Positions 14,812 through 31,607 of a stretch of DNA of 64,000 nucleotides are shown here, in pieces. The DNA is from Bordetella genomosp. 4 (lineage in GTDB: Bacteria > Pseudomonadota > Gammaproteobacteria > Burkholderiales > Burkholderiaceae_B): assembly GCF_002261185.1 (NCBI RefSeq), contig NZ_NEVQ01000013.1:558001-622000 (forward strand), given 5' to 3'. A program made the translations under genes and the position numbers. The notes beneath the pieces are model-generated. The model did not search any database, was not told the origin of the DNA, and saw only the letters and a program-made list of their open reading frames with translations. How positions within the stretch are numbered: the first letter of the stretch is position 1; each line of letters starts with the position of its first letter.

Positions 14812-15891
14812 ATGGCAACCCTGAGCTTTCGCAACGTCAAGAAAACCTATGCCGGCAACGTCGCCGTCATCCACGGCATCGACGCAGACGTAAAGGACGG
14901 CGAATTCATCGTCATTGTCGGCCCGTCCGGCTGCGGAAAATCCACGCTGATGCGCATGGTCGCCGGCCTGGAGACTGTCACCAGCGGCGAGATCCTGATC
15001 GACAACAAAGTCGTCAATCAACTCGAGCCTGCCGAACGCGACATCGCCATGGTGTTCCAGAACTACGCGCTCTACCCGCACATGAGCGTGTTCGATAACA
15101 TGGCCTACGGCCTGAAAATCCGCAAATTCTCCAAGGACGACATACGCAAACGCGTCGACGCCGCCGCCAAAATCCTGGAGCTCGAAAAGCTGCTGGACCG
15201 CCGCCCGCGGCAATTGTCCGGCGGCCAGCGCCAGCGCGTCGCCATGGGCCGCGCCATCGTGCGCGAACCCAAAGTCTTTCTGTTCGACGAGCCCCTCTCC
15301 AACCTGGACGCCAAACTGCGCGTGGCCATGCGTCTGGAAATCATGAAACTGCATCGGCGCCTGGGCACCACCAGCCTGTACGTCACGCACGATCAAGTCG
15401 AGGCCATGACGCTGGCCCATCGCATGATTGTCATGAACCAGGGCGTGCCCGAGCAGATCGGCACTCCCATGGAGGTCTTCGAAAAGCCCGCCTCCACCTT
15501 TGTCGCAGGCTTCATCGGCTCTCCGCCCATGAACCTGATTACGGTTGCCACCACCGCCGAAGGCAGCGTCCAGACTCAAGACGGCATCGCTCTGCAAATC
15601 CCGGCAGACCAAGTCCCCGCCGCCATACGTGGCCGCCCCGTCATCCTGGGCATACGTCCGGAGCACATCAGTCTCGATAGTCAGGGCATCCCCGCTGAAG
15701 TCGAAATGATCGAAACCCTGGGCTCGGAACAACTCTTGCACGCGCGCTGCGGTCAATCGCCTATCGTCGTCCGCTGTCCCACCAGCCTGTTGGCCGCCAC
15801 GCCGTACAAACCCGGTGACTCCATCCAACTCGGTTCAGACGGCCGCCACGCCCTGCACTGGTTCGACGTGCAGACCGGGCGGCGGATCTGA
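14812..15891 (+). CDS. ugpC: sn-Glycerol-3-phosphate ABC transporter ATPase UgpC
   Basis: 359 aa, the CUT1/MalK-type length. It has Walker A (GPSGCGKST), Q-loop ([12 protein letters not shown]), signature (LSGGQRQR), Walker B ([11 protein letters not shown]) and switch His (VTHDQ), followed by a C-terminal regulatory TOBE domain from about residue 240. It energises UgpAE. No ugpQ phosphodiesterase follows; the next gene is convergent after 35 bp. Confidence 0.96.
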
Positions 15892-15926: not shown

Positions 15927-17012
15927 CTAGGCACCGCGAACCGTATGCGCCTGAATCGCTGATGGCATCGGCACGGACCACGTCTCGGACAACTTGTGCA
16001 ACGCCGGCACAATCGTGGGATCCAGGGACACGCCCTGACTGAGCTGCTGTGCCCGCAATGCCAGGCCCCGGTCACCCGGCAATCGCACTGCGTCCACGCC
16101 TGGCCGAGGCAGATTCTCGCGGCACTGCTGTGCCAGCCAATCCATCTGCCGATGAAAGTCTTCTTTGCCACCAAAACCCGTTGTGTCATGCAGCGTCAGA
16201 TACACCGTAGCGCCCCACCCCTCGGCGCCGTCGGCACGGCCATAACCGCCTAAGCCGCCTGTCAGCGCCTCGATCAGCAAAGCCAGGCCATACCCTTTGT
16301 GCCCTGCGGAGATGCCGCCCACGGGCAGGATGGTGCCGGGCGGCTGAGCAAACAAGACTGACGGGTCACGCGTAGGATTGCCCTGCGCATCGATCAACCA
16401 GGCCTCATCGAACTGCCTGCCCTGCTGCGCCAAACGTGCGGACATACCGTTAGTCGTGATCGAAGCGGAGATATCGATCAACAACGGCGATGCTGCAGGG
16501 ATGCCTGCGGCAATAGGATTAGGCGTAAACACGGCCTGAGTGCCGCCAAAAGGCGCCACGCTACGTCCTGCCGGATCGGATGACGCCAGCACGATCAACA
16601 TGTCTTGTTCAACTGCGCGCAACAGATAGCTGGCCAGGCACGCAATATGGTGGCTGCGCCGGATGACCAGGGTTGCCGAACCGAAACGTCGCGCACGCGG
16701 CAGCAATTCATCGATTGCGCGGCACACCAGCCAGGGGCCCGGCAAGCGCCGGCCGTCCCACAATACCGCCGCTTCTTTGTCGGACAGGACCTCCGGCTCG
16801 CCGTCATTGGTCATGCGGCCTTGCTGCAGTTCCGCTGCATAGGGGGCCAACAACGCCAGGCCATGCGTCGTATGTCCCAGTAAATCGCCCTCCACCAATA
16901 CCTCGGCCACGGTAGCCGCGATATCTGTACGCATCCCGGCCTGCACCAACACCCGCTCGGCAAACTCCCGTAGCGCGCCAGCTGCATAAACCCCAATTTC
17001 ATCACGACTCAT
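15927..17012 (-). CDS. Malate/L-lactate dehydrogenase family (Ldh_2) oxidoreductase
   Basis: 361 aa. This NAD(P)-dependent family (YlbC, AllD, ComC) oxidises 2-hydroxy acids such as malate, lactate, ureidoglycolate or sulfolactate. Visible hallmarks are GDLLGHTTHGL near the N-terminus, the IRRSHHIACLASYLL helix, FTPNPIAAGIP, and SAGHKGYGLALLIEALTGGL. The ATG at 17012 is chosen because AAGGAG lies 9 nt upstream and the start overlaps the tctA stop (ATGA). The gene belongs to the tct operon, so its substrate probably derives from what TctABC imports. Confidence 0.9.
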   Translation of the reverse strand: MSRDEIGVYAAGALREFAERVLVQAGMRTDIAATVAEVLVEGDLLGHTTHGLALLAPYAAELQQGRMTNDGEPEVLSDKEAAVLWDGRRLPGPWLVCRAIDELLPRARRFGSATLVIRRSHHIACLASYLLRAVEQDMLIVLASSDPAGRSVAPFGGTQAVFTPNPIAAGIPAASPLLIDISASITTNGMSARLAQQGRQFDEAWLIDAQGNPTRDPSVLFAQPPGTILPVGGISAGHKGYGLALLIEALTGGLGGYGRADGAEGWGATVYLTLHDTTGFGGKEDFHRQMDWLAQQCRENLPRPGVDAVRLPGDRGLALRAQQLSQGVSLDPTIVPALHKLSETWSVPMPSAIQAHTVRGA

Positions 17013-18517
17013 GCCGTCACGCTCCTTTTCTGCATCGACATGCGATATACGCCTTTGCACAGCGGTATCAACCACACCAGGATTGCCAGGACACCCAGGC
17101 CGCACGCAATCGGACGGCTGAAGAAAGCCCAGAAATTCCCATCGGCCTTGATCATCGAGAAAACGAAATGCTCTTCGAGCATGCCGCCCAGCACCACTCC
17201 CAGCACAGCAGGTGCAATCGGAAAGTCGTTCTCCTCCATCAGATATGCCAGCACGCCCATCACCAACATCACCAGCACATCGAACACGCTGTTATTGATC
17301 GCAAAAGTCCCCACGATGCAGAACAGCAGAATGATGGGCATCAACACATTACGCGGCACATTCAGCACCTGCTTGGCCGTCTTTACCGCCAGATAGCCCA
17401 AGGGCAACATGATGATGTTCGCCAACACGAACACAGTGAAAACCGCATACATCTCGACCGGGCTGTTGGTGAAAATCATTGGGCCTGGCGTCATGTTTTT
17501 CATATACAGCACACCGATCACGATAGCCGTAATCGAATCTCCCGGAATCCCGAACACCAACGCGGGGATCCACGCGCCGGCCAATGCGGAATTATTGGCG
17601 GCCCCGGCCTCGACGATTCCTTCTACATGGCCTGTGCCGAATTTCGCTGGCTCGCGCGAAAAACGTTTGCTCACGCCATACGACATCCAGGCGGCGATGT
17701 CGGCCCCAGCCCCCGGCAGAATACCCACCACGGTTCCCAGCACGCTGCCGCGTGCGACACTGGCAGGATACTTGCGCATCAATCCGCCCATTCCCGTGAA
17801 AATATTCCCGATGCGCCCTTTTATATCCACCGGTCGCTGACTGATATCCGTGGCATAACGCAGCACCTCGGACACCGCAAACATCCCCACCATCATCGGC
17901 AACAGCGTCACGCCATTGAGCATGTCATCATTGCCGAACGTGAAACGCGGGTACGCCGCGGGATTGTTCATCCCAACACAGGCCAGCAACAACCCGATCA
18001 ACAACGACACAAAACCACGCAGCGTGCTCGATGGAGAAATGAATATCGCACACGACAGGCCCAGCACCACCAGCCAGAAAAACTCGTACGACGTGAAATT
18101 CAGCGCAAAATCGGCCAGCATCGGTGCGCACGTAATCAACACGAACGTGCCGAACAGTCCGCCTATGCACGAGAACACGATACTCGCGCCCAACGCCTGA
18201 TCGGCCAGGCCTCGCCGCGTCATGCTGTAGGCCTCGTCGGTATAAGCCGCCGACGACGGCGTGCCCGGTATGCGCAGCAAACACCCCGGAATATCCCCGG
18301 ACGTGATCGCCATCGCCGTGGCCGTCACCATCATCGCGATGGCCGGGATCGGGTCCATGAAAAACGTGATGGGCACCAGCAACGCGACGGCCATCGTCGC
18401 GCTCAGGCCGGGCACTGCCCCCACGAACAGACCGAATATCGCAGACAGCAAAATCACGCCCAGCACAAACGGGTCGGCTACCTGCAGCAATGCCTGATAG
18501 ATATGTTCAGATGCCAT
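17009..18517 (-). CDS. tctA: Tripartite tricarboxylate transporter large permease TctA
   Basis: 502 aa with about twelve membrane segments. It contains the TctA hallmarks GLFVGAVPGLSATMAVALLVPITF, SGDIPGCLLRIPGTPSSAAYTDEAY, GILPGAGADIAAWMSYGVSKRFS and ALVFGIPGDSITAIVIGVLYMKNMTPGP. It forms the transport channel driven by the ion gradient. The start MASEHIYQALL follows the tctB stop by 4 bp. Confidence 0.96.
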   Translation of the reverse strand: MASEHIYQALLQVADPFVLGVILLSAIFGLFVGAVPGLSATMAVALLVPITFFMDPIPAIAMMVTATAMAITSGDIPGCLLRIPGTPSSAAYTDEAYSMTRRGLADQALGASIVFSCIGGLFGTFVLITCAPMLADFALNFTSYEFFWLVVLGLSCAIFISPSSTLRGFVSLLIGLLLACVGMNNPAAYPRFTFGNDDMLNGVTLLPMMVGMFAVSEVLRYATDISQRPVDIKGRIGNIFTGMGGLMRKYPASVARGSVLGTVVGILPGAGADIAAWMSYGVSKRFSREPAKFGTGHVEGIVEAGAANNSALAGAWIPALVFGIPGDSITAIVIGVLYMKNMTPGPMIFTNSPVEMYAVFTVFVLANIIMLPLGYLAVKTAKQVLNVPRNVLMPIILLFCIVGTFAINNSVFDVLVMLVMGVLAYLMEENDFPIAPAVLGVVLGGMLEEHFVFSMIKADGNFWAFFSRPIACGLGVLAILVWLIPLCKGVYRMSMQKRSVTA

Positions 18518-18521
18518 GATG

Positions 18522-18998
18522 TCACCATGCCAACGGTTCGAGCAGACCCCACGGCAATGGCACGTGCAGCACACTGTAGAACATCACATGAATCACGAGC
18601 GAGACGGCCACCGAGACAATCAACGCGCGCATCCAGCGCACGCCAAACAGGCGTTGCATCACCAGCAGCAGCAAAAAGGAACACAGCAAGAATCCCAGCC
18701 AGTCCGCCGCCATGAAATAAAACACCAGCGAAATCGGCACCATCAGAAAACGCAGCACCGCCATCGGATCCCGCAACCACGCGGGCCAGCCTTTGCGCGC
18801 GGCACCTGCGCGGCGCGCACGCCATCCCTGGATCACCAACAACACGGAACAAATAAACAGGCCTATGGAAATCAGCGTCGGAAACAGACTCGCGCCAAAA
18901 TGCTGGCCAGGTATCACGGGAAAAGTGCGCGCAGCGGCGAAAACCAATACAGAGAAAACGCCCAGCACAATCCCAATTCGAATATCGTCGAATTTCAT
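18522..18998 (-). CDS. tctB: Tripartite tricarboxylate transporter small permease TctB
   Basis: 158 aa with four hydrophobic segments, the standard TctB topology. The N-terminus MKFDDIRIGIVLGVFSVLVFAAARTFP and the segment GQHFGASLFPTLISIGL are family-typical. It is an accessory membrane subunit required by TctA. It lies between tctC (79 bp upstream) and tctA. Confidence 0.93.
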   Translation of the reverse strand: MKFDDIRIGIVLGVFSVLVFAAARTFPVIPGQHFGASLFPTLISIGLFICSVLLVIQGWRARRAGAARKGWPAWLRDPMAVLRFLMVPISLVFYFMAADWLGFLLCSFLLLLVMQRLFGVRWMRALIVSVAVSLVIHVMFYSVLHVPLPWGLLEPLAW

Positions 18999-19077
18999 GG
19001 GACCTCTACGAAATGAGGGTTCGACACCCCGACCGGCATAGCGGCCGGGGAATGCGATGCGGCAACGATGCCAATGG

Positions 19078-20052
19078 CTACTGCGGTGCGGGACGCGCCA
19101 TGCCAATCGCGGAAATCACTTGCCCGAAATCATCCATCGAACGTTGCATGAAGGCGCCGTACTCCGCGCCGCCGGCCCAGCCGATGCCAAAGCCGCGCTG
19201 CTTCATGAAATCCTGGAATTCCTTGCTGTGATTGATCTTGTCGAGCGCCTGCACCATCCGCTTGGTAACATCGTCGGGCAGGCCCTTGGGACCTGCGATG
19301 CCGCGCCACACGCCGATTTTCCAATCCACGCCGATCGACTCTTTCAGCGTCGGCACATCGGGATACAGGGCCTCGCGCTTGTCGGCCATCACCGCCAATG
19401 GTTTCGCTTTACCAGCGTCGATCATCGGACGCGCCTCGGGCAAGGAAGTCGGCACGATGTCGATACCTCCGGAGGCCAATTCCAACATGGCCGGCGCCGC
19501 GCCGTTAGATGGCACAAAGGGGACTGCCGCCGGATCCAGGCCTGCGGTCTTGAGCAAACCGGCAATCGCAATGTGCCAGATACCGCCCTGGCCAGTGCCT
19601 GATGCCTTGAGCTTGCCGGGATTCGCCTTGATCGCCTCCATCAGATCGCCCATCGTTTTGTACGAAGACGAGGCGCTGACAGAAACCGCAGCGGGGTCCA
19701 CGTTCATCAACCCGAGCGGCGTATAGTCCGCTGGCGACAGAGACGTCAAGCCCAGATGCTTCATCATCGCAATCTCGACCGTCAACATGCCCAACGTGTA
19801 GCCATCAGGCCGGGCCTTGGCAATCGCTGCATGTCCTACGACGCCGTTACCGCCCGTGCGATTGACGACGTTGACGGGTTGGCCCAATTCCTTTTCCAGC
19901 AGCGAGGCGATGATGCGCGCCGTGGCATCGGTGCCTCCTCCTGCGCCCCACGCCACATACATCGTGATAGGCCTTTCAGGCCAATCCGCGTATGCCAGCG
20001 GAGAAAAAGCGCATAGCGCTAACGCCCATCCAAGCAAGCGGTGTTTCCTCAT
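19078..20052 (-). CDS. tctC: Tripartite tricarboxylate transporter receptor (Bug/TctC family)
   Basis: 324 aa. A signal peptide (LGWALALCAFSPLAYA) is cleaved near residue 22. The mature start DWPERPITMYVAWGAGGGTDATARIIASLLEKELGQPVNVVNRTGGNG is characteristic of Bug receptors, which bind carboxylates in a Venus-flytrap fold in the periplasm. As first gene of tctCBA-dehydrogenase it sets the substrate of the system. The ligand cannot be read from sequence; a 2-hydroxy acid would suit the dehydrogenase. Confidence 0.94.
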   Translation of the reverse strand: MRKHRLLGWALALCAFSPLAYADWPERPITMYVAWGAGGGTDATARIIASLLEKELGQPVNVVNRTGGNGVVGHAAIAKARPDGYTLGMLTVEIAMMKHLGLTSLSPADYTPLGLMNVDPAAVSVSASSSYKTMGDLMEAIKANPGKLKASGTGQGGIWHIAIAGLLKTAGLDPAAVPFVPSNGAAPAMLELASGGIDIVPTSLPEARPMIDAGKAKPLAVMADKREALYPDVPTLKESIGVDWKIGVWRGIAGPKGLPDDVTKRMVQALDKINHSKEFQDFMKQRGFGIGWAGGAEYGAFMQRSMDDFGQVISAIGMARPAPQ

Positions 20053-20322
20053 CGTATTGTCTCCAGGTCCTTCGTGGAATGCCCGGCGGATGCCGGATCC
20101 GGTCAGCTACGATAGGGGCGCAATGTGTACTTGCACCCTCGTTTTGAAATAACAACAGACGCTCTGTGATAGTGTGAAACCATCTTAATTGATCGTTATT
20201 AGCAGAGCAATCGACGATTCGACTATCGGGTTATCCCGGTGAGGGTTTTGTTATTGGCTGGATCGATTGGGTTGAATTTCGTTGGCGGTTTAGATGGGCG
20301 TAGGGTGTGTGTGCTTATGGAC

Positions 20323-20486
20323 GTCGAGCCGAGGCAATCGGGCCGTGCGGGCTTCACAAAGCCGGTCCGGCGCGCGGGCGCCGGACACCGTGTTCGCTCG
20401 CTTCGTCCGGCCCCTTCGGGCCTCCCTTCAGCCTCCGCTCCACTCGGCTTTGAGGCGCCCGCACGGCCCGATTGCCTCGGCTCGAC
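20323..20486 (+). repeat. 30-bp perfect inverted repeat with 104-nt loop (copy A)
   Basis: Arm 20323-20352 is exactly complementary to 20457-20486, both starting or ending at the GTCGAG/CTCGAC boundary. Inside, CAAAGCCG (20357) pairs with CGGCTTTG (20445), extending the stem beyond a 4/4 internal loop. Confidence 0.92.
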
Positions 20487-20581
20487 TCGCAGTAATTCAA
20501 GCTCATCACATCGCTGGCACGATTTTCTTGCTTGGCGTTTTTTTGTAGCCCTGTTGGCAAAGAGAAAGATCTTGCGGTGCT

Positions 20582-20616
20582 GCTATTCGCGCGTGCCCTG
20601 CACACGCGCGAATAGC
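20582..20616 (+). repeat. 14-bp hairpin of repeat copy A
   Basis: Perfect stem 20582-20595 with 20603-20616 and a 7-nt loop. The base of the stem (GCTATTC/GAATAGC) is shared with copy B, while the apical 7 bp differ but remain paired. Confidence 0.9.
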
Positions 20617-20790
20617 GATCGGTCCGGGCATGCGGCGGGGTGGCATGGTGCCAGTTTGGAAGATCTGCTTGGCTAGAGTTGATGCATGCGGCGATGATGC
20701 GTAGCGCATCTCTGGGTATAACGAAATCGTAGCTCGAGAGATCTTCTGTTCATCCCCGATGCCAAAGCCTTCGCATGCAGATTATGAACG

Positions 20791-20826
20791 CTATTCATGG
20801 CCGCGCCCGTAGGCGGCCATGAATAG
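20791..20826 (-). repeat. 14-bp hairpin of repeat copy B
   Basis: Perfect stem 20791-20804 with 20813-20826 and an 8-nt loop. It is separated from the 30-bp inverted repeat by exactly 95 nt, as in copy A. Confidence 0.9.
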
Positions 20827-20921
20827 CAGCCCTGCAAGATCTTCATCCTTGCAAACGCCAGTTCCTACGAAGCCTACGTAGACCAGTCGTGCCAGCGGCG
20901 AGGGAATCAGAGATGCTGCGA

Positions 20922-21073
20922 GTCGAGGCGGGGCAGTGACCGTGTTGGCGCGCCTCGGAGTCGAGCGAGGGAAACCGAAGGAGCGTAGCGACGAGGTTGA
21001 CAAAGCGGTGTCGGCCGCGCAGGCGGCCGACCGACTCCGTGAAGCGCCAACACGGTCACTGCCCCGCCTCGAC
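20922..21073 (-). repeat. 30-bp perfect inverted repeat with 92-nt loop (copy B)
   Basis: Arm 20922-20951 is exactly complementary to 21044-21073. The arm sequence differs from copy A at many positions yet pairs perfectly with its own partner, so the differences are compensated. Confidence 0.92.
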
Positions 21074-21208
21074 GTCCAATAGCACTCGCCCCCCCATCCT
21101 GCCCACACTGCAACGCTCAGCGCCCCCCTTCAGCAGGCCATCCAAACCAGCCACAACTGAAAACCTGAACGACTAAACACACGGTTATTCAAACCCGACT
21201 ACTCAATA

Positions 21209-21808
21209 TCAAGGCAACGCCACAGACTCCTGCACCCGCGAGACGCGAGGCAATGGCGCAGCGACACGCCAGATGGCTCGACGGCGCAGCGCGGTGAGCA
21301 ATTTCAAACCGTGAGGCCAATCCCCAAAGCCGCTCTCTGTGTTGATATGTCCCGCACCGGAGAGAACCTCGAAACGACTTCCCCACGCCGACGCGAACTG
21401 CCGGGCGCGGTCCAACCGGCAGTACGGATCATCATCGCTGGCGACAACAACAGATTGGAATGGCAGCGAATGCAGCGGCACCGGCCCAAATGCCCGTAGG
21501 CAATCCGGCGCACTGTGGCGTTCAACATCAGCCGGCGCCACCAACAAAGCACCCGCGACCTTGGCTCGCAATGGAACCGGCAGGCTCACGGATGCCAGGC
21601 ATCCCAGGCTATGGGCGATCAGCAGCACAGGACACGCCGCACGGTCCACGTAGGCAGCCACCGTCGCATGCCAGACCGCCGGATCGGGATTGTCCCAATC
21701 AGGCGGCTGCACGCGCTGCGCATGTGGTAAACAATGCGCCCAGCGCGTCTGCCAATGGCCGGGGCCGGAATCTTTCCAGCCCGGAACGATAATCGGTTGG
21801 AATCTCAT
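21209..21808 (-). CDS. Alpha/beta hydrolase of the RBBP9/YdeN family
   Basis: 199 aa, typical of this short serine-hydrolase family. The N-terminus VPGWKDSGPGHWQTRWAHCLP matches the family. The likely catalytic triad is Ser in AHSLGC, Asp in ASDDDPYC and His in GAGHINTESGFGDWPHG. The start MRFQPII is preferred because it opens at the first beta strand; the frame is open to 21898, but that extension is not family-like. The substrate is unknown. It lies alone between the repeat pair and a divergent amino acid receptor gene. Confidence 0.88.
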   Translation of the reverse strand: MRFQPIIVPGWKDSGPGHWQTRWAHCLPHAQRVQPPDWDNPDPAVWHATVAAYVDRAACPVLLIAHSLGCLASVSLPVPLRAKVAGALLVAPADVERHSAPDCLRAFGPVPLHSLPFQSVVVASDDDPYCRLDRARQFASAWGSRFEVLSGAGHINTESGFGDWPHGLKLLTALRRRAIWRVAAPLPRVSRVQESVALP

Positions 21809-22132
21809 GGCGGATATGATGCCGCGCAGCCTTATGATGGCAAACGAATAAATTGTCTTTTGTATATATGCGGATTTGCATATAGCGCCGACTGCCATCG
21901 TCTATCGGGCTCAGTATCCAATTTTGCCGGCACGGTAGTGCGGGCGCGAAGTGACTGCAGACCGACCATTCGCGTTGATACGGGATTTCCCTGCCCTGCG
22001 CAAGGCCATTTACGCCCCCGTTTTCACCTCAAACCGGTGCTTGTTTCAGGTATGCTTGCCCTGCACCGAGCGGGTGCATAGACACGATCAGCCCCCGCCC
22101 GAATACGAAATATGAAGCCAAGGAGATCCCTC
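21809..22132. other. Divergent intergenic region
   Basis: 324 bp between the hydrolase and the orphan receptor start codons. It holds the AAGGAG ribosome binding site of the receptor at 22120-22125. No further coding frame, operator or repeat stands out. Confidence 0.5.
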
Positions 22133-23360: not shown

Positions 23361-23966
23361 ATTTCCGTACAATTTCCCCAGTCTTGACAATTATTTTCAA
23401 AGTTTCGTGTAGAAACCACACCACGAAACAAGAAATGTCTAACCGGCCATGAACTATAATTAGCCGCTGGTTTAGTTACATAATTTTCATTTAATTAATA
23501 ACAAATGCAGCAATTACCGGCTAGATAGCAGAGAGGATTTTCGCGTATTTCCCGAGAAATAGCTCTTTTCGTGTACACGATGCCGACGATAAGCGGGCCA
23601 ATTGTATCTATATTTTTCCGTATATCGTCTTACGATCTTGCAGACACAATATAAACAGTAAAATTTGCGAACTCGAACTCTACGGATACTCCCTTCATAA
23701 TGGCCGAGCCTCTTTTTTATGGCACAGGTATCAGTATGTCAGCGGTTTGCCCTGCCTTGAGAAGCAGCGGGCACGCCGTCTTCCACATCATCGCAGATAG
23801 TCTGGCTTTACCCGTCGGATAATCGGCGCGGCTTGGGCGACTACTGGCAGGCGCAGCCAGTATGTCCAGTGCCTCGTGGGCTGGTGTAATCGGTTGTGCG
23901 GCTACTGGTTGCCAGCAGAACAAAATCAAAAGGCTCTCAAGAGCTGTTGTTGAAGGAATTTCATTC
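23361..23966 (+). promoter_or_regulatory. AT-rich region upstream of the polyketide synthase
   Basis: 606 bp without a supportable gene and visibly richer in A+T than its neighbours. It contains an inverted repeat GTTTCGTG-N12-CACGAAAC (23402-23429) located 25 bp before a perfect TATAAT (23455-23460), a TTGACA (23393-23398), and a CGTGTACACG palindrome (23570-23579). The spacing of TTGACA and TATAAT is too wide for one promoter. The PKS ribosome binding site (AAGGA) lies at 23953-23957. Confidence 0.5.
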
Positions 23967-26900
23967 ATGGCAAAACGTGTTGCCGTCGTAGGGCTCTCGT
24001 TCCGGTTTCCGCAAACGGATACCGAGCGATATTGGAATGACCTGATGGCCGGACGCGATCTGGTCACCCAAGTTGACGCCAGCCGTTGGCAGCAAGACGC
24101 CTATCTGCATCCCGCCAAGGACCACCCCGGCACTGCCTACACCTTCTCTGCTGGATCCCTGGGGGATATTTCCGGTTTTGACGCGCACTTTTTTGGCATC
24201 TCGCCGCGCGAAGCTTCTCTGATGGACCCGCAGCAACGCATGTTGCTGGAATTGTGCTGGGAAGCCATCGAAAGCGCTGGCATACCACCCTCGCGCATGC
24301 GCGGCAGCGACTGCGGGGTCTATATCGGCATCGCCAGCGCCGATTATTCATATCGCCTTTCCGACGACATGGGGGCCGTCGACGCATCGATGGCCACGGG
24401 CAACACGTCCAGTATCGCGGCCAACCGCCTGTCGTACCTGTTCGATCTGCACGGCCCCAGCATGGCCGTGGACACCGCATGCTCGTCGGCGCTGGTCGCC
24501 GTGCACCAGGCCTGCCGCGCCATCATGACCGGCGAAACCACGCAGGCCATCGCGGGCGGCATCAGCTTGCATTTGCACCCCTATGGCTTCATCACGTTTT
24601 CCAAGGCCTCGATGTTGTCGCCCGAAGGGCGCTGCAAGGTTTTCGATGCCTCGGGTGACGGCTACGTCCGATCCGAGGGTGGCGGCCTGTTTTTGCTGAA
24701 AGATTACGACCAGGCTGTCGCCGACCGCAATCACATCCTGGCCGTCATTGCGGGCAGCGCCGTCAACACCGACGGCCGCAAATCGGGCCTGACCGTGCCC
24801 AACGCCAATGCTCAGATTTCGCTGATGCAGCAGGTGTACGAACGCGCGGGCATCGACATCGCCGACATTGACTATCTGGAGGCTCACGGCACAGGCACCG
24901 CCGTGGGCGACCCGATCGAGACGCGCGCCATCGGCGCGGCGCTGGGTCAGCCTCGCGGCACGGGCAAACCCCTGACCATCGGCTCGGTCAAGAGCAACCT
25001 GGGCCACCTCGAGGCCGCCTCGGGCGTGGCCGGCCTGGTCAAGGCCATCTACAGCCTGCAACATCGCGTCGTGCCCGCCACCATCGGCATCAAGACGCTG
25101 AACCCGGCCATCGAGTTCGACAACTGGAATATTTCGGTTGCCACGGAGAACTACGCCCTGCCCGCCAGCGGCACGCTGACCATCGGCGTGAACTCGTTCG
25201 GTTTTGGCGGCGCCAACGCCCACGTCATTCTGCAAAGCGCGCCTGAAGCCGATAACGATCCGGCCGACAAGCTGGCCAACACCGCAGCCGTGCCCGTGAT
25301 CGTGTCCGGCAAAACGCCCGAGGCGCTCAAGGCCGCGGCTCGCGACCTGGCAGGCGTGCTGCAGAGCCAGCCCGGACGCGCGCTGTATGACGTGGCCTAC
25401 CACGCCGCCATGCGCCGCGAATGGCATGCCGAGCGTGCTGTCGTCTACGGCACCGACAGCGAACAAGTCGCGCAGGCCTTGAGCCAGTTTGCCGAGGGCG
25501 ACGCCCCTCGGTACAGCGTGGCATCCGGCAGCGCCGTGCCCGACGCCCAAGGCGCAGTGTTCGTCTATTCCGGTAACGGGTCGCAGTGGGACGGCATGGG
25601 CCGCCAACTGCTGGCCGATCCGGTCTTTGCCGAAGCGGTCCACGAAATCGATACGCTGTTCGCCCCCCTGGCGGGTTATCGCCTGGGTGACGAGCTCGCA
25701 CGCACCGACAGCGCCAATCAATATGCACGCACCGAGGTCGCGCAGCCGGCCTTGTTCGCGATCCAGGTAGGCATCACCCGCATGCTCGCGCAGCGCGGCA
25801 TCCTGCCGACCGGCGTCATCGGCCATAGCGTCGGCGAAGTCGCTGCCGCATGGGCCTGCGGCGCGTTGACCCTGGCCGACGCGGTTCAGGTCATATTCCA
25901 TCGCAGCCGGCTGCAAGGCAGCACCAAGGGCCACGGCTGCATGACTGCCGTCGGGATAGACGGAGGCGCTGCCCTCGCCCTGTTGACCGAGCTGCAGCTC
26001 ACCAACGCCGTATGTGTGGCGGGCTACAACAGCGCACGCGGCGCCACGCTGGCTGGCGATCCGGCTGCCTTGGCGGCCGTCGAGGCTGCTCTGGCCGAGC
26101 GCAAGGTTTTCTACAAGCGCCTGGACCTGGACTACGCATTTCACAGCGCTGCCATGGACCCCATCCAGGCCGACCTGCAGCAGGCCCTGGCCGGCTTGAC
26201 ACCCAAGGCCGGCCACACGCCCTTCTATTCATCCGTAGACGGCAAGCTGCTGGACGGCAAGAAACTCGGCGCAGACTATTGGTGGCGCAACGTCCGTGAA
26301 CCGGTACGTTTTCACCAGGCCATCGACGCCCTGGTCGAGCGAGGCGACAACGTCTACATCGAAGTCGGCCCGCATCCGGTGCTGCGCTCATACGTCAACG
26401 ATGGCCTGAACAGCGCCGAACGCAAAGGCCGTGTCCTGTTGACCGCCAGCCGCGGCAATGACGATCCCGCCCGCATTCACGACACCGCTGGCCAGGCCAT
26501 CCTGAGCGGCGCGCAAATCGACTGGCAGGACCTGTTCCCCTGGGAAGGCCGCCACGTCATCATGCCCGCCTACCCCTGGCAACGCGAGCGCTACTGGCAC
26601 CCGGCCACCGCCGACTCGCTCGGCCAGTTGCAGCGCGCCAAGGTCCATCCCCTGCTGGGATATCCGCTCAGCCAGCACGAAGGCATCTGGGAAAACCAGC
26701 TCGATACGAGGCTGTATTCCTGGCTGGCCGACCACATCGTAGGCGACGCGACGGTATTCCCGGGCAGCGGATTTGCCGAGATTGCCCTGGCCGCAGCACA
26801 GCAATGGCAACCGGCGCCCTGGCTGGAAATCGAAGAGCTCGAGATCCGCGCCCCGCTGCTGCTGGCCCCCTCGCCGTCCAAACGTACCCGCGTGACGGTC

Positions 26901-29900
26901 GATACCTCCGACGGCAGCTTGCGGATCCAAGCAAAAGACGTGGGCAGCCCCGAACCCTGGACCCTGCATGCCACGGCCCGGGTGCTGCGTGAGGCCAGCG
27001 ACGCCCTGATTACCGGTGCCCCTGTGCGCGCGCTGGAACGTCCATACGACTTCAATACCGACAGTCATGCGCTGCTGACTCGTGCAGTAGGACTCGATTA
27101 CGGCGACGCCTTCCGCGCCGTACATCACGGCTGGAAAGAATCCGACGATACCGTACTGGCTGTGTTGCAGCCTGCCGCGGTCCTGCAAGACCAGTTGTCA
27201 CGCAGCCTGTTGCATCCGGCGCTGCTTGACTGCACGTTCCAGTTGATCATCCAACTGTTGCGCGATGACCCGGCCATGGGCCAAGGCGTCGCCTTCGTGC
27301 CCGCCAAAATCGGACGCATGGCCGTACGCTCAGAGACAGACGTGCCGCATTTCGTGCGCGCCCGCCTCTTGCGCCGCGCCCCGCATTCGCTGACGGCCGA
27401 ATTCGACATCTACAACGCCGAGGGCGAACAAATCGCCGCCGTGCGCGAAGCCCGATTCAAGAGCATCCGTCTCTCGAAAGCGACCGGCGACACGCTGGAT
27501 TTCGTCGACGACGCGGGCGTGCCTCGTCCGCATGTCCTGGATCCACGCAGCCGCATCAGTGCGCTGGATGCAGGCGCAGCCTCCGACGCCTGGGCGAGCG
27601 TGGCGGCCGGTGCCGCTCAGGACCAGACACATACGCGTTACGCTCACGAAATCGAGCCTTTGCTCGATAGCCTGTGCGACCATTTCTTTGTCCGGGCGCT
27701 GACGGCATTGGCGCCCAACGGCCACCATCTGTACAACGATGCTGTCGAACGTTGCCGCCAGGCTTCGCCCGACTCCGCTGCCTTGCTGGACCATCTGTTG
27801 GCGCGGGCTACCGATACAGGACTGCTGGAGCGCTCACCGTCGGGCTGGGGCATCCCTGTCCAGGAAGACAACGCCCCCGATGTCATCGACATCTGGAACA
27901 GCCTGCTGCGCGAATACCCCGATTATGCGCACATCGTGCACGCCGTCGGCCGTGTCGGCCTGCATCTGGGCCGGCTCTTGCAGGGTCAAGTCACATTGGA
28001 CAGCGTCTGCCCCGCTGACGCCTCGCCCAGCGCGCTGACGCATCAGATCCTGGGCACCGAGGCTCGCGAACGCATCGGCGCCGCCTTGCAGACCTTGCTG
28101 ACCCAGGCGCAAGGCCAACTGCCAGCCGGTGCCCGGTTGAACGTACTGGAAATCAGCGCCTACGCGCCGGCTTTTGCGGTGCACTGCTGCACCACGCTGG
28201 ATTTCGACGTGGCGGACTACCGCTACGTGTCCACCCAGCAATCCGCCGTCGACAACGCGCAACGTCTGCTCGATGCGTATCCTGACGCCTCGTGCGGCCT
28301 GATCGAGGGCGCGCCGCAAGCCAACGAGTCCGGTTATTACGACCTGATCGTGCTGCATGCCGATGCCAGCAGCCCCGACGACGCCCTGCGGTCGTTGGAA
28401 TATGCCCGTGCGCATTTGAAGACCGGCGGCACCTTGTTGCTGCTTGGCCATCATCCCGTTGCGTGGCTGGATTTCGTGGCAGGTGCGCAAGCCACATGGT
28501 GGACGCCGGCGGACGCCGAGGGACTGCAAGCCTCATGCCAGTATCCCGCCCGCCTGTGGCAGGACATGCTGACACAGCAGGGCTATACCTGCGGCCCGGT
28601 CCTGGAATTCGTGTCCGAGTCCTTGTCGGGTCCGTATCTGCTGAGCGCCGTTGCCACAACAGCATCCGCCGTCGCCCAGCCTGCGGCTGCCGCAGCGCAA
28701 ACTGCTTCCCAACCCGAACAGCCGGGCTGGCTGGTGCTCATCGGATCCCGAGACACCGACGCCACGCTGGCCCAGGCCATCACCACGGCCCTGAATGCGG
28801 CAGGCCATCGCACGCTGATCCAACGCGAGGTGGATGACGCCCATCTGGACGCGCTGCTGGCGCAAGCCACCAGCCAGTTGGGCACCATCCACGGCGTCAT
28901 CCATCTGGACGGTCTGATTCCGAGCGCGGCCAGCCACACCACGGAGCTGCAAACCCAAGTCCGCCGTTGTGCTCTGGCCGCCTCTATCGCCCAGGCGCTC
29001 GAACGCAGTAATAGCAAAGCCACCCTCTGGCTCATCACCGTCGGCGCCGCGCAGCATCTGGCCACGCCCGACGCCGCCTCCACGGGCCTGAACGACACGA
29101 CGCTGTGGGGCTATGGCCGCACGATGATGAACGAGGCGGCCAACTACGGCGTACGCCTGCTGGATTTGCCGCATGCCGAGCCCACTGAGGTGTTGATCGA
29201 CGCCCTGGTGCGCGAGCTATGCCACCCTGATGCCGAGCAAGAGGCCGCCCTGACGGCCAATGGCGAGCGTTACGCGCCCCGCCTGCATACTCTGCCCCGC
29301 CCATCCAATGCCGCTGCGCTGGATCACACCGCCGACCAGATCAGCCTGGGCTTTGAGTTCCCAGGGCAACTGCGCAACCTGCGCTGGCAGGCCGGCCCGG
29401 CGGCCGAACTGGCCGACGACCAGCTGGAAATCGAAGTCCACGCCACAGGCCTGAATTTCCGCGACGTGATGTACGCGCTGGGCCTGCTGTCGGACGAAGC
29501 CATCGAAAACGGCTTTGCCGGCCCCACCCTCGGCCTGGAATTCGCAGGCACCGTGCGACGCGTGGGCCCGCAGGCCGAAGGCGGCTATCAACCCGGAGAC
29601 GCCGTCGTAGGCTTTGGCCCGGCCAGCTTCTCCAACCGCGTCTTTACGAAGGCCAGCGCCATCGCCCACATCCCCGAAGGCATCTCCTTCGAGGCGGCGG
29701 CGACGATTCCCAGTACTTTCTTTACCGTCTACTACGCGCTGCACCATCTGGCTCAGCTCGAAGAAGGCGAAAAGGTCCTGATCCATGGCGCGGCAGGCGG
29801 CGTCGGCATTGCCGCCATCCAGTTTGCGCAAGCCCGCGGCGCCGAGATCTACGCCACCGCCGGCTCTGAAGAAAAACGCGACTTCCTGCGCCTGATGGGC

Positions 29901-31607
29901 GTGCAGCACATCTACGACTCGCGTTCGCTGGCCTATGCCGACGACATCCTGGCTGATACCCAGGGCCAAGGCGTAGACGTGGTCCTGAACTCCCTGGCCG
30001 GCGAAGCCGTCAACCGCAACCTGCGTGTCCTGAAACCCTTTGGCCGGTTCCTCGAACTGGGCAAACGCGATTTCTACGAAAACACCCGCATCGGCCTGCG
30101 CCCATTCCGCAACAACATCAGCTACTTCGGCATCGACGCCGACCAACTGATGCACGAGCGCCCCGCCCTGACCCGCCGCCTGTTCGGCGAAATGATGGCG
30201 CTCTTTGCCCAGGGCGTGCTGCATCCTCTGCCCTATCAGGAATTCGACGCCAACGACATTGTCGACGCCTTCCGCTACATGCAGCAGGCGCGCCAGATCG
30301 GCAAAATCGTCATCACGTACCGCAACGGTATCCGCCACACGCACACGGCCGCCGCGACGACCGATGCCGCCGCACTGACCCTGCCCGAACAGGCCACCTA
30401 CCTGATCACTGGCGGTCTCAGCGGCTTTGGCCTGCGCACCGCGCAATGGCTGGCCGACAAAGGCGCGCGTCATCTGGCGCTGGTCAGCCGCAGCGGCCCT
30501 GCGTCCGAGACGGCACAACAAGCCATCGCCGAGCTGCAAGCTCGCGGCGTCACCGTCCATGCCGCGCCTTGCGACGTCACCGATGCACAGGCCGTCAACG
30601 ATCTGGTCGCGCATATCCAGGGCACCATGCCGCCACTGAAAGGCATTGTGCACGCCGCCATGGTCATCGACGACGGCCTCATCCGCAACGCGACCGCCGA
30701 ACAAATCGAGCGTGTGCTGGCCCCCAAAGTCCTGGGCGGGCAGCATCTGGATGCCGCCACACAGGACCTGACGCTGGATTTCTTTGTCATGTTCTCGTCG
30801 GGCACCACGCTGTTCGGCAACCCGGGGCAAGCCAACTACGTTGCCGCCAACATGTGGCTGGAGGGCCTGGCCCGCCAGCGCCGCGCCCAAGGCCGTCCGG
30901 CCACCTGCGTACGCTGGGGCGCCATCGACGACGTCGGTTACCTGGCGCGCAACAAGAAAATCAAGGATGCCTTGCAGAGCCGCATGGGTGGCGCAGCACT
31001 GGCCTCCGACGCAGCGCTGCACGCGTTGGAAGACATGCTGCTGGCCAACGCCAGCGGCCTGGGCGTCCTGGAACTGGACTGGCGCGCCCTGCGGCGGTTC
31101 CTGCCCAGCGCCAATACGCCTAAATTCAGCGTCCTGGCCCGCCGCAGCAGCGACAGCGGCGACGACGACGGCGACGCCCGCGACATCTCGCATCTGCTGG
31201 CCACCATGGACGACGCTGCCTTGCATCCGGTATTCGTCGAGATGCTCAAGACCGAAGTCAGCGAAATCCTGCGCGTATCTGCCGACAAGATCGATCCCGA
31301 CGTCTCGGTCTACGACATGGGTCTCGACTCCCTCATGGGCGTCGAGCTGGTCGTCGCGCTGGAAAACCGGTTTGGCATCCGCCTGCCGGTCATGGCGCTC
31401 AACGAAAGCCCCACCTTGTCCAAGCTGGCTGGCCGCTTGATCCAACTGCTGCGCGGCGAGGGCGACCATGCCGAACAGGACACGGTATTGGCCCAAGTCG
31501 AGCAGGTGGTCTCACAACACACCGACGAAGTCCCGGCCGAAGCCATGGCCAAATTCGCCGATGAACTAAAATCAGGGAACATCAACAGCAAACGCATGAT
31601 CCACTGA
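23967..31607 (+). CDS. Iterative fully reducing type I polyketide synthase (KS-AT-DH-MT*-ER-KR-ACP)
   Basis: 2546 aa, one complete module. The ketosynthase (about 1-425) has Cys172 in DTACSS, His307 in EAHGTGT and His347 in NLGHLEA. The acyltransferase (about 530-815) has Ser621 in GHSVGE and a YAFHS motif, both suggesting malonyl-CoA. The dehydratase (about 895-1170) has His923 and Asp1088 (HPALLDC). Residues 1215-1565 resemble a C-methyltransferase lacking the glycine-rich SAM motif (LEISAYAP), followed by a structural KR-like segment. The enoylreductase (about 1795-2120) has HGAAGGVG. The ketoreductase (about 2140-2375) has Ser2278, Tyr2291 and a B-type IDD motif. The carrier protein (about 2415-2500) has Ser2455 in GLDSLMG. 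There is no thioesterase, and a 60-residue tail follows the carrier. ATG 23967 (AAGGA upstream) is preferred over 23862. Release is probably by the next gene. Confidence 0.96.
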   Translation: MAKRVAVVGLSFRFPQTDTERYWNDLMAGRDLVTQVDASRWQQDAYLHPAKDHPGTAYTFSAGSLGDISGFDAHFFGISPREASLMDPQQRMLLELCWEAIESAGIPPSRMRGSDCGVYIGIASADYSYRLSDDMGAVDASMATGNTSSIAANRLSYLFDLHGPSMAVDTACSSALVAVHQACRAIMTGETTQAIAGGISLHLHPYGFITFSKASMLSPEGRCKVFDASGDGYVRSEGGGLFLLKDYDQAVADRNHILAVIAGSAVNTDGRKSGLTVPNANAQISLMQQVYERAGIDIADIDYLEAHGTGTAVGDPIETRAIGAALGQPRGTGKPLTIGSVKSNLGHLEAASGVAGLVKAIYSLQHRVVPATIGIKTLNPAIEFDNWNISVATENYALPASGTLTIGVNSFGFGGANAHVILQSAPEADNDPADKLANTAAVPVIVSGKTPEALKAAARDLAGVLQSQPGRALYDVAYHAAMRREWHAERAVVYGTDSEQVAQALSQFAEGDAPRYSVASGSAVPDAQGAVFVYSGNGSQWDGMGRQLLADPVFAEAVHEIDTLFAPLAGYRLGDELARTDSANQYARTEVAQPALFAIQVGITRMLAQRGILPTGVIGHSVGEVAAAWACGALTLADAVQVIFHRSRLQGSTKGHGCMTAVGIDGGAALALLTELQLTNAVCVAGYNSARGATLAGDPAALAAVEAALAERKVFYKRLDLDYAFHSAAMDPIQADLQQALAGLTPKAGHTPFYSSVDGKLLDGKKLGADYWWRNVREPVRFHQAIDALVERGDNVYIEVGPHPVLRSYVNDGLNSAERKGRVLLTASRGNDDPARIHDTAGQAILSGAQIDWQDLFPWEGRHVIMPAYPWQRERYWHPATADSLGQLQRAKVHPLLGYPLSQHEGIWENQLDTRLYSWLADHIVGDATVFPGSGFAEIALAAAQQWQPAPWLEIEELEIRAPLLLAPSPSKRTRVTVDTSDGSLRIQAKDVGSPEPWTLHATARVLREASDALITGAPVRALERPYDFNTDSHALLTRAVGLDYGDAFRAVHHGWKESDDTVLAVLQPAAVLQDQLSRSLLHPALLDCTFQLIIQLLRDDPAMGQGVAFVPAKIGRMAVRSETDVPHFVRARLLRRAPHSLTAEFDIYNAEGEQIAAVREARFKSIRLSKATGDTLDFVDDAGVPRPHVLDPRSRISALDAGAASDAWASVAAGAAQDQTHTRYAHEIEPLLDSLCDHFFVRALTALAPNGHHLYNDAVERCRQASPDSAALLDHLLARATDTGLLERSPSGWGIPVQEDNAPDVIDIWNSLLREYPDYAHIVHAVGRVGLHLGRLLQGQVTLDSVCPADASPSALTHQILGTEARERIGAALQTLLTQAQGQLPAGARLNVLEISAYAPAFAVHCCTTLDFDVADYRYVSTQQSAVDNAQRLLDAYPDASCGLIEGAPQANESGYYDLIVLHADASSPDDALRSLEYARAHLKTGGTLLLLGHHPVAWLDFVAGAQATWWTPADAEGLQASCQYPARLWQDMLTQQGYTCGPVLEFVSESLSGPYLLSAVATTASAVAQPAAAAAQTASQPEQPGWLVLIGSRDTDATLAQAITTALNAAGHRTLIQREVDDAHLDALLAQATSQLGTIHGVIHLDGLIPSAASHTTELQTQVRRCALAASIAQALERSNSKATLWLITVGAAQHLATPDAASTGLNDTTLWGYGRTMMNEAANYGVRLLDLPHAEPTEVLIDALVRELCHPDAEQEAALTANGERYAPRLHTLPRPSNAAALDHTADQISLGFEFPGQLRNLRWQAGPAAELADDQLEIEVHATGLNFRDVMYALGLLSDEAIENGFAGPTLGLEFAGTVRRVGPQAEGGYQPGDAVVGFGPASFSNRVFTKASAIAHIPEGISFEAAATIPSTFFTVYYALHHLAQLEEGEKVLIHGAAGGVGIAAIQFAQARGAEIYATAGSEEKRDFLRLMGVQHIYDSRSLAYADDILADTQGQGVDVVLNSLAGEAVNRNLRVLKPFGRFLELGKRDFYENTRIGLRPFRNNISYFGIDADQLMHERPALTRRLFGEMMALFAQGVLHPLPYQEFDANDIVDAFRYMQQARQIGKIVITYRNGIRHTHTAAATTDAAALTLPEQATYLITGGLSGFGLRTAQWLADKGARHLALVSRSGPASETAQQAIAELQARGVTVHAAPCDVTDAQAVNDLVAHIQGTMPPLKGIVHAAMVIDDGLIRNATAEQIERVLAPKVLGGQHLDAATQDLTLDFFVMFSSGTTLFGNPGQANYVAANMWLEGLARQRRAQGRPATCVRWGAIDDVGYLARNKKIKDALQSRMGGAALASDAALHALEDMLLANASGLGVLELDWRALRRFLPSANTPKFSVLARRSSDSGDDDGDARDISHLLATMDDAALHPVFVEMLKTEVSEILRVSADKIDPDVSVYDMGLDSLMGVELVVALENRFGIRLPVMALNESPTLSKLAGRLIQLLRGEGDHAEQDTVLAQVEQVVSQHTDEVPAEAMAKFADELKSGNINSKRMIH

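Follow-up and report, generated by a model that had tools for sequence, protein, structure and literature searches.

A dispersed, dyad-symmetric noncoding element of Bordetella-group bacteria and its possible role in blocking transcription from both sides where genes converge

Introduction

Rho-dependent terminators combine a stable hairpin with C-rich, G-poor RNA at gene ends and leave trimmed, hairpin-protected 3' ends, a C/A-rich, G-poor RNA tail being a known loading site of the termination factor Rho. MITEs and Correia-type elements are short noncoding elements with terminal inverted repeats that occur in many copies. Among extragenic palindromes, the GTAG- and CGTC-tagged REP sequences and BIMEs are often organised as head-to-head dimers or heterodimers and lie mostly between convergent or unidirectional genes; according to their description, REPs measure 20-40 bp with stems of 5-13 bp, the CGTC families have a stem of 8-9 bp following an unpaired CGTC tag and no assigned transposase, and the GTAG families are associated with the RAYT (Y1) transposase (PMC3733652). 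Two further repeats are relevant here: the Bor repeats of Bordetella, which are palindromic, simple stem-loops of 26-30 bp near genes (PMC1590033), and BRE, a Beta-proteobacterial repeat element of ~90 bp with VNTR-like tandem copies, some of them within coding sequences (PMC3110155).

Here we describe an element located in what we refer to as the window, i.e. the whole analysed stretch of 64,000 nucleotides from Bordetella genomosp. 4. The element is composite, noncoding and dyad-symmetric, and is one copy of a repeat dispersed in Bordetella-group bacteria. Its two halves are oriented tail to tail, each of ~330 nt and laid out as a skewed flank, a branched hairpin of ~165 nt with arms of ~30 pairs (P1), a linker of ~95 nt with conserved islands, and a second, small hairpin (P4). 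Like REP and BIME sequences it is an extragenic palindrome with a convergent-gene location, and CGTC is present at the foot of P1. Unlike the described REPs, however, it has halves of ~330 nt, long arms, inner branches within P1, a second hairpin and skewed flanks; its CGTC is partly paired, whereas the REP tag is unpaired; and, in contrast to the GTAG families, zero Y1_Tnp matches were found in the genome of the window (G000), and likewise zero in two carriers, G003 and G007. With the Bor repeats it shares being palindromic and near genes in Bordetella, but it is far from a simple stem-loop of 26-30 bp, and with BRE it shares being a multicopy intergenic repeat in Bordetella, but BRE is ~90 bp and VNTR-like. 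Unlike MITEs and Correia-type elements, no target-site duplication or related transposon was found, and the multi-helix interior is conserved across genera. Unlike Rho-dependent terminators, which it resembles as judged from sequence alone, the element would be two-way, is homogenised between copies and resides on a dispersed repeat. The nearest described repeats (REP/BIME, Bor and BRE) differ from the element in size and build, and among the papers listed by the literature searches there was no published description of it.

Results

A sequence-only reading of this locus had described two diverged, inverted copies, A and B, of a long structured repeat. We find instead that A and B each form one half of a single dyad element (Table 1), a composite found dozens of times in the genome; that the two form a unit, and that this unit is mostly located between convergent genes, had been overlooked. 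The inverted repeats themselves were recovered, with arms of 42 nt that are 93% complementary and include 30 perfect base pairs, enclosing loops of 104 nt in A and 92 nt in B, as were the small hairpins, and the alignment of A with the reverse of B confirmed the islands TCGCAG, CGCTGGCACGA and AAGATCTTGC along with the order of parts. The spacer, claimed to be exactly 95 nt, has that length in A and 94-95 nt in B, depending on the counting of a 15th pair, and the leader thought to be shared dissolves, as common sequence ends ~12-18 nt out and further out composition alone is common. The structure outperforms shuffled sequence, with folding z scores of -8.3 (A) and -12.2 (B) and none of 100 shuffles matching the native fold in either half. 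The element is delimited by GACGTCGAG-type inverted ends plus ~12 semi-conserved bases; such ends are present at both sides of intact group 1 copies and are off by one or a few bases in the group 2 variants, so the element has terminal inverted repeats as MITEs do. A gene finder placed zero genes within any of 21 copies, and no coding gene was detected in the element.

Table 1. Layout of the composite element and its immediate surroundings, in window positions.
Feature	Position	Strand	Basis
Whole composite (dyad): half A (+), centre, half B (-)	20319..21077	.	Outer boundaries of the R1 covariance model matches, 20319 and 21077; 19 such +/- pairs genome-wide
Left skewed flank, G/T-rich reading inward, G+T 0.78; final ~12 nt semi-conserved among copies	20259..20318	+	Composition, conserved positions
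Half A P1 domain, large branched hairpin	20319..20494	+	R1 152.5 bits; RNA folding
Half A P1 5' arm, 30 perfect pairs	20323..20352	+	Inverted-repeat search
Half A P2 inner hairpin, GTCCGGCGC-GCGG-GCGCCGGAC	20365..20386	+	Folding; covariation (helix 2)
Half A P1 3' arm	20457..20486	+	Inverted-repeat search
Half A 95-nt linker, islands TCGCAG, CGCTGGCACGA, AAGATCTTGC	20487..20581	+	A / reverse-B alignment
Half A P4 small hairpin	20582..20616	+	Inverted repeat; covariation
Half A tail with GCATGCG	20617..20638	+	Sequence
Centre between halves; mostly ~0-320 bp among copies, occasionally longer	20639..20779	.	Copy comparison
Half B P4 small hairpin, minus-strand loop C-TACG-G	20790..20827	-	Inverted repeat
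Half B linker, islands as in half A	20828..20921	-	Alignment
Half B P1 domain; arms 20922-20951 and 21044-21073	20914..21077	-	R1 176.2 bits; folding
Right skewed flank, plus strand C/A-rich and G-poor, G/T-rich reading inward	21078..21137	-	Composition
Flanking gene, 3' end toward half B	21209..21898	-	ORF; DNA match in 8/8 relatives

A DNA search of G000 (5.53 Mb in 23 contigs) with half A returned dozens of copies, many with an opposite B-type half a few hundred bases on. The covariance model R1, which covers the P1 domain and was built from 33 halves, yielded 110 matches in this genome at E <= 1e-5, of which 75 score >= 90 bits; the remaining 35 are below 60 bits and mostly fall on the opposite strand of the same places. 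Nineteen +/- pairs with a span of 759-879 bp account for 38 of the 75 halves. The other 37 are unpaired, 18 of them no more than 700 bp from where a contig ends, a pattern that assembly breaks at near-identical repeats would produce, and some retain a partial partner (L055, L056). At one place in this genome (C21:103491-105697) two halves lie ~2 kb apart, possibly with another insertion within the element.

Further copies in relatives, whose absence would have spoken against the sequence-only reading, are present: the DNA search was positive in seven of the eight other genomes of the genus, and in 11 of 41 genomes including G000. The one genome of the genus with zero DNA-search matches is G004, and the element therefore seems dispensable. 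At E <= 1e-3, with 18 candidates scored per genome, R1 detected the element in at least 27 of 151 genomes of the family (G000 included) and in at least 10 of 43 genera. Four single-contig genomes, with 150 candidates each, gave 17, 14, 8 and 15 matches at E <= 1e-5, one of which is a reverse-strand duplicate; other genera are undercounted here, since the model was built on this genus. A broader model, R3, was positive in four of 349 genomes from the order, namely G000 and three others of its family, with no match outside the family in this rather insensitive screen (E <= 1e-6, 8 candidates per genome). Among named genomes the core DNA pattern occurs in six stretches, from two Bordetella petrii strains and B. 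genomosp. 2; a shorter P1 variant, of ~120 rather than 165 nt, was observed in B. petrii-group genomes (L129, L130, L145). A phage or plasmid origin was rejected, as 50,697 phage and 72,556 plasmid records failed to yield a match at E 1e-5, and a search of the IMG/VR viral contigs with one exact core pattern gave no match. Rfam returned none at gathering score, the best being 44.5 bits versus the 137 needed (miRNA precursor models, E 5e-6), which we read as a long-hairpin artefact.

We then considered the gene context of 38 loci of G000, taken from the DNA-search list, 17 of the genus and 23 of other genera, the latter two sets fetched from matches and picked mostly for being paired; further R1 halves were left unscored. 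Loci truncated at a contig end were excluded (12 of the 38 in G000, and L077 and L084 of the 17), and the second site of L130 was omitted too. Neighbours were tallied by hand from a simple codon-usage gene finder, except that at the window locus a hydrolase ORF that it missed was taken from the ORF list. Of the 64 scored loci, 48 are convergent, 12 codirectional and 4 divergent, the convergent share being 21/26 in G000, 13/15 in the same genus and 14/23 in other genera. The sole background, 50 element-free adjacent gene pairs of the window, comprises 8 convergent, 36 codirectional and 6 divergent pairs, and comparison with the scored loci gives Fisher p = 2e-10. In convergent gaps, each half has the same orientation as the gene running into it.

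The window copy is an exception to the convergent setting, with a history. The gene whose 3' end points at half B we take to be alpha/beta-hydrolase-like, and in G006 and G004, the two relatives tested, this hydrolase faces the gene that in the window occupies 14812-15891, presumably ABC-transporter-like. Four minus-strand genes (15927-19962), which we assume to be TctC/TctA/TctB-like plus dehydrogenase-like, now separate that gene from the element, an apparent insertion adjoining it. Elsewhere in the window, an open reading frame of 2,581 residues on the plus strand (23862-31607) is, we presume, a type I polyketide synthase.

The ~60 nt outside each half are G/T-rich when read inward, a skew that fades with distance and is seen in all three taxonomic groups examined. 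The sequence of the flanks is unrelated between copies, and composition is what they have in common. From stop codon to element, the sense strand of 42 flanks contains G 0.38, T 0.33, C 0.15 and A 0.14, compared with G 0.30, T 0.19, C 0.29 and A 0.22 in 11 element-free convergent gaps. A mutational origin from incoming transcription was set aside because the skew is present without an incoming gene (G+T 0.73 in 16 hand-picked flanks, a set that left out the flanks of L050, L055 and L075 and the second half of L079), and replication-strand skew was set aside because the sign reverses between the two flanks. RNA leaving the element would carry the flank as a C/A-rich, G-poor tail, on composition alone congruent with the C-rich, G-poor RNA region of Rho-dependent terminators. 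For intrinsic terminators, i.e. a short GC hairpin with a T run, one was found versus 1.3 expected, outside the halves.

The hairpin arms vary in sequence and stay complementary, with few wobble pairs, and one-sided changes to standard pairs are rare. In 33 P1 domains 95.4% of cells are paired and 334 cells changed on both sides, versus 100 in shuffles; in 38 P4 domains the corresponding figures are 95.5% and 176 versus 55. Covariation amounts to 0.525 for P1 and 0.869 for P4, against 0.15 and 0.17 when shuffled, and the signal is lost on a one-column slide of the partner. The number of pair types was not above that of the shuffles (35/500 as high for P1, 363/500 for P4), and the both-side changes of P4 did not pass the shuffle control (31/500 as high). 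Kinship among alignment rows can inflate the shuffle test.

In 41 halves, 552 of 574 P4 pairs are Watson-Crick and 2 are G-U. The residual non-Watson-Crick cells of P1, collected from 92 distinct halves, are A-C in 68, G-U in 12 and other in 55 of 2,739 ungapped cells, and those of P4 (found in ~74 of the 92 halves by hand count) are A-C in 13, G-U in 6 and other in 11 of 1,063. Counted by copy, P1 displays an A-C excess in 39 and a G-U excess in 6 (sign test). The asymmetry suggests that wobble is tolerated on the outward-reading strand; one invariant P1 U-G pair (33/33), a wobble solely on the inward-reading strand, speaks against this notion.

Copies within G000 differ by ~4-8% outside the stems, and their arm changes occur mostly on both sides together. 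Summed over four copy groups, 47 cells are both-sided and 24 one-sided, 12 of the 24 stemming from one C-C consensus position, and the changed cells are not independent events; P1 of the second subfamily shows solely one-sided changes (4 cells). Because independent single mutations should leave more intermediates, it is likely that a DNA-level process, either hairpin-templated copying or whole-hairpin exchange between copies, drives the paired arm changes. With near wobble-free stems, this mismatch pattern and double changes at low divergence, covariation is weakened as an argument for RNA, and alone it is no proof of RNA function.

Eight of 17 element loci in the other genomes of the genus have a flanking gene in common with an element locus of G000, three of them (L078, L079, L129) matching on both sides. 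Three of the eight are the same site seen in different genomes, so that the distinct shared sites number six; the chance figure of 2.5e-6 assumes 6% occupancy and treats the three one-site loci as independent. Where a site is shared, the halves of G000 show just 57-73% identity to those of the other genome, whereas the best paralogues of 15 compared G000 halves reach 92-97%, and paralogues being closer than shared-site copies denotes concerted evolution or overwriting. Other shared-site pairs are 91% (G003/G008), 82% (G002/G003), 77% (G002/G006) and 62% (G002/G005) identical. The sequence-only reading had also raised a recombination or chromosome-organising site, and on these comparisons copies appear to exchange sequence.

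At the L048 site the element is present in G000 and G007, a gap of ~90-130 bp without it in G001 and G004, and other short palindromic repeats in G003 and G008. R1 does give weak scores on the G008 stretch (36.1 bits) and on L163 of G005 (33.3 bits), which we read as cross-hits to those short palindromes. At the L026 site no element was found in any of seven relatives, the highest R1 score, from a single one of them, being 20.5 bits (E 0.004). Short palindromic repeats of the GGTGTCTGACACC / GGTGTCAGACACC type, distinct from the element, occur at the same gene 3' ends in relatives (L157, L160-L163, L168, L169); they are possibly related to the published Bor repeats.

The sequence-only reading had also proposed a palindromic element mobilised in trans. 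Terminal inverted repeats are present, whereas no target-site duplication was detected at the boundaries tested (exact repeats of 3-9 bp sought at offsets 0-21 in 19 intact G000 loci; at best 2/19, at 3 bp), and mobilisation by RAYT was rejected in the absence of a Y1 transposase from G000. One Y1_Tnp match is present in G004, the genome with no DNA-search match. In G070, two pairs spanning 2.8 and 3.8 kb (L127, 2822-5405; L128, 2584-3777) have Mutator/IS256-type transposase genes inside (Pfam Transposase_mut), one of which seems split by another in L127. We judge these genes to be probable later insertions rather than cargo. The P1 domains of L129 are 1.5 kb apart, with repeated sequence and repetitive ORFs only between them.

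Discussion

Our preferred reading, to which we assign a probability of roughly 40%, is that the element may serve as a bidirectional transcription barrier between converging genes. A polymerase running out of one gene would transcribe the near half in its sense orientation before traversing the far half in reverse, the emerging RNA ending with P4', P1' and a C/A-rich, G-poor tail of 60-100 nt just ahead of the opposite gene. Read-through would then stop at the tail of the far half via Rho instead of proceeding antisense into the neighbour, the giant hairpin would shield the trimmed 3' end, and the mirror process would operate from the other direction. The perfect arms would be re-made as units at the DNA level, through hairpin-templated copying or exchange of whole hairpins, with copies spreading or overwriting one another by recombination. 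A more specific form of this idea, in which the hairpins self-repair, the arms changing together by hairpin-templated copying with the fold kept and the copies evolving in concert as two-way insulators, we regard as unlikely.

The convergent placement (48/64 versus 8/50) argues for a barrier, as do the conserved pairing of P1 and P4, the flanks that are skewed also where no gene comes in, and the excess of A-C over G-U mismatches, with wobble apparently tolerated on the outward-reading strand. The centre, which shrinks to ~11 bp in L082, points in the same direction, internal promoters being unneeded. Against a barrier speak the 16 of 64 loci that are non-convergent, including the divergent ones, and the lower convergent share in other genera; the 75 halves in G000 versus 8-17 matches in the four single-contig genomes, as in a selfish expansion; G004, which does without a DNA match; and the failed shuffle controls for pair types in P1 and P4 and for both-side changes in P4. 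C-UACG-G is a stable RNA loop, and its presence on the inward strand of some P4 hairpins also counts against the barrier.

The main rival is a selfish palindromic element, non-autonomous and behaving like a MITE or a REP, that is mobilised in trans or spread by recombination and survives between gene 3' ends, where harm would be least. It accounts for the placement and the copy-number swings nearly as well as the barrier does, and we consider it a serious possibility, if short of probable. The element is dispersed and noncoding with terminal inverted repeats, its copy number differs between species, and the L048 site is filled in some genomes and a mere gap in others, all as a selfish repeat would have it. 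On the other hand, exact target-site duplications at the tested boundaries and a Y1 transposase in G000, G003 and G007 are missing, no coding partner with the same ends was seen, the G070 transposases looking like later insertions, and element-specific skewed flanks of unrelated sequence are unexpected from simple insertion.

Convergent gaps are the meeting place of positive supercoils, and the palindromes might instead act as DNA, forming cruciforms or binding protein, and thereby absorb supercoils between converging units or organise the chromosome. The almost wobble-free stems and the arms that often change together at low divergence are congruent with such a site, but the strand asymmetry of the mismatches is not predicted by it, and long conserved islands and a branched P1 exceed the needs of a cruciform, which renders this option improbable. 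Outward transcription from the centre by two divergent noncoding RNA genes, akin to the noncoding RNA gene of the sequence-only reading, would explain the conserved structure, the islands and the outward wobble preference, but is very improbable given promoter-like sites at chance level (1 found, outside the element, versus 0.5 expected), no Rfam match at gathering score, and a centre of variable length that in L082, with ~11 bp between aligned halves, leaves no room for divergent promoters.

Conclusion

The stems constitute a natural test of how long palindromes stay perfect, and a caution against taking covariation as proof of RNA function. Should the hairpins be self-repairing, perfect covariation can come from DNA mechanics and not from RNA selection. 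If the element is a recombining or mobile two-way terminator, as in the barrier reading, a dispersed repeat would be serving its host by keeping converging transcripts separate, and the function of extragenic palindromic repeats would become directly testable.
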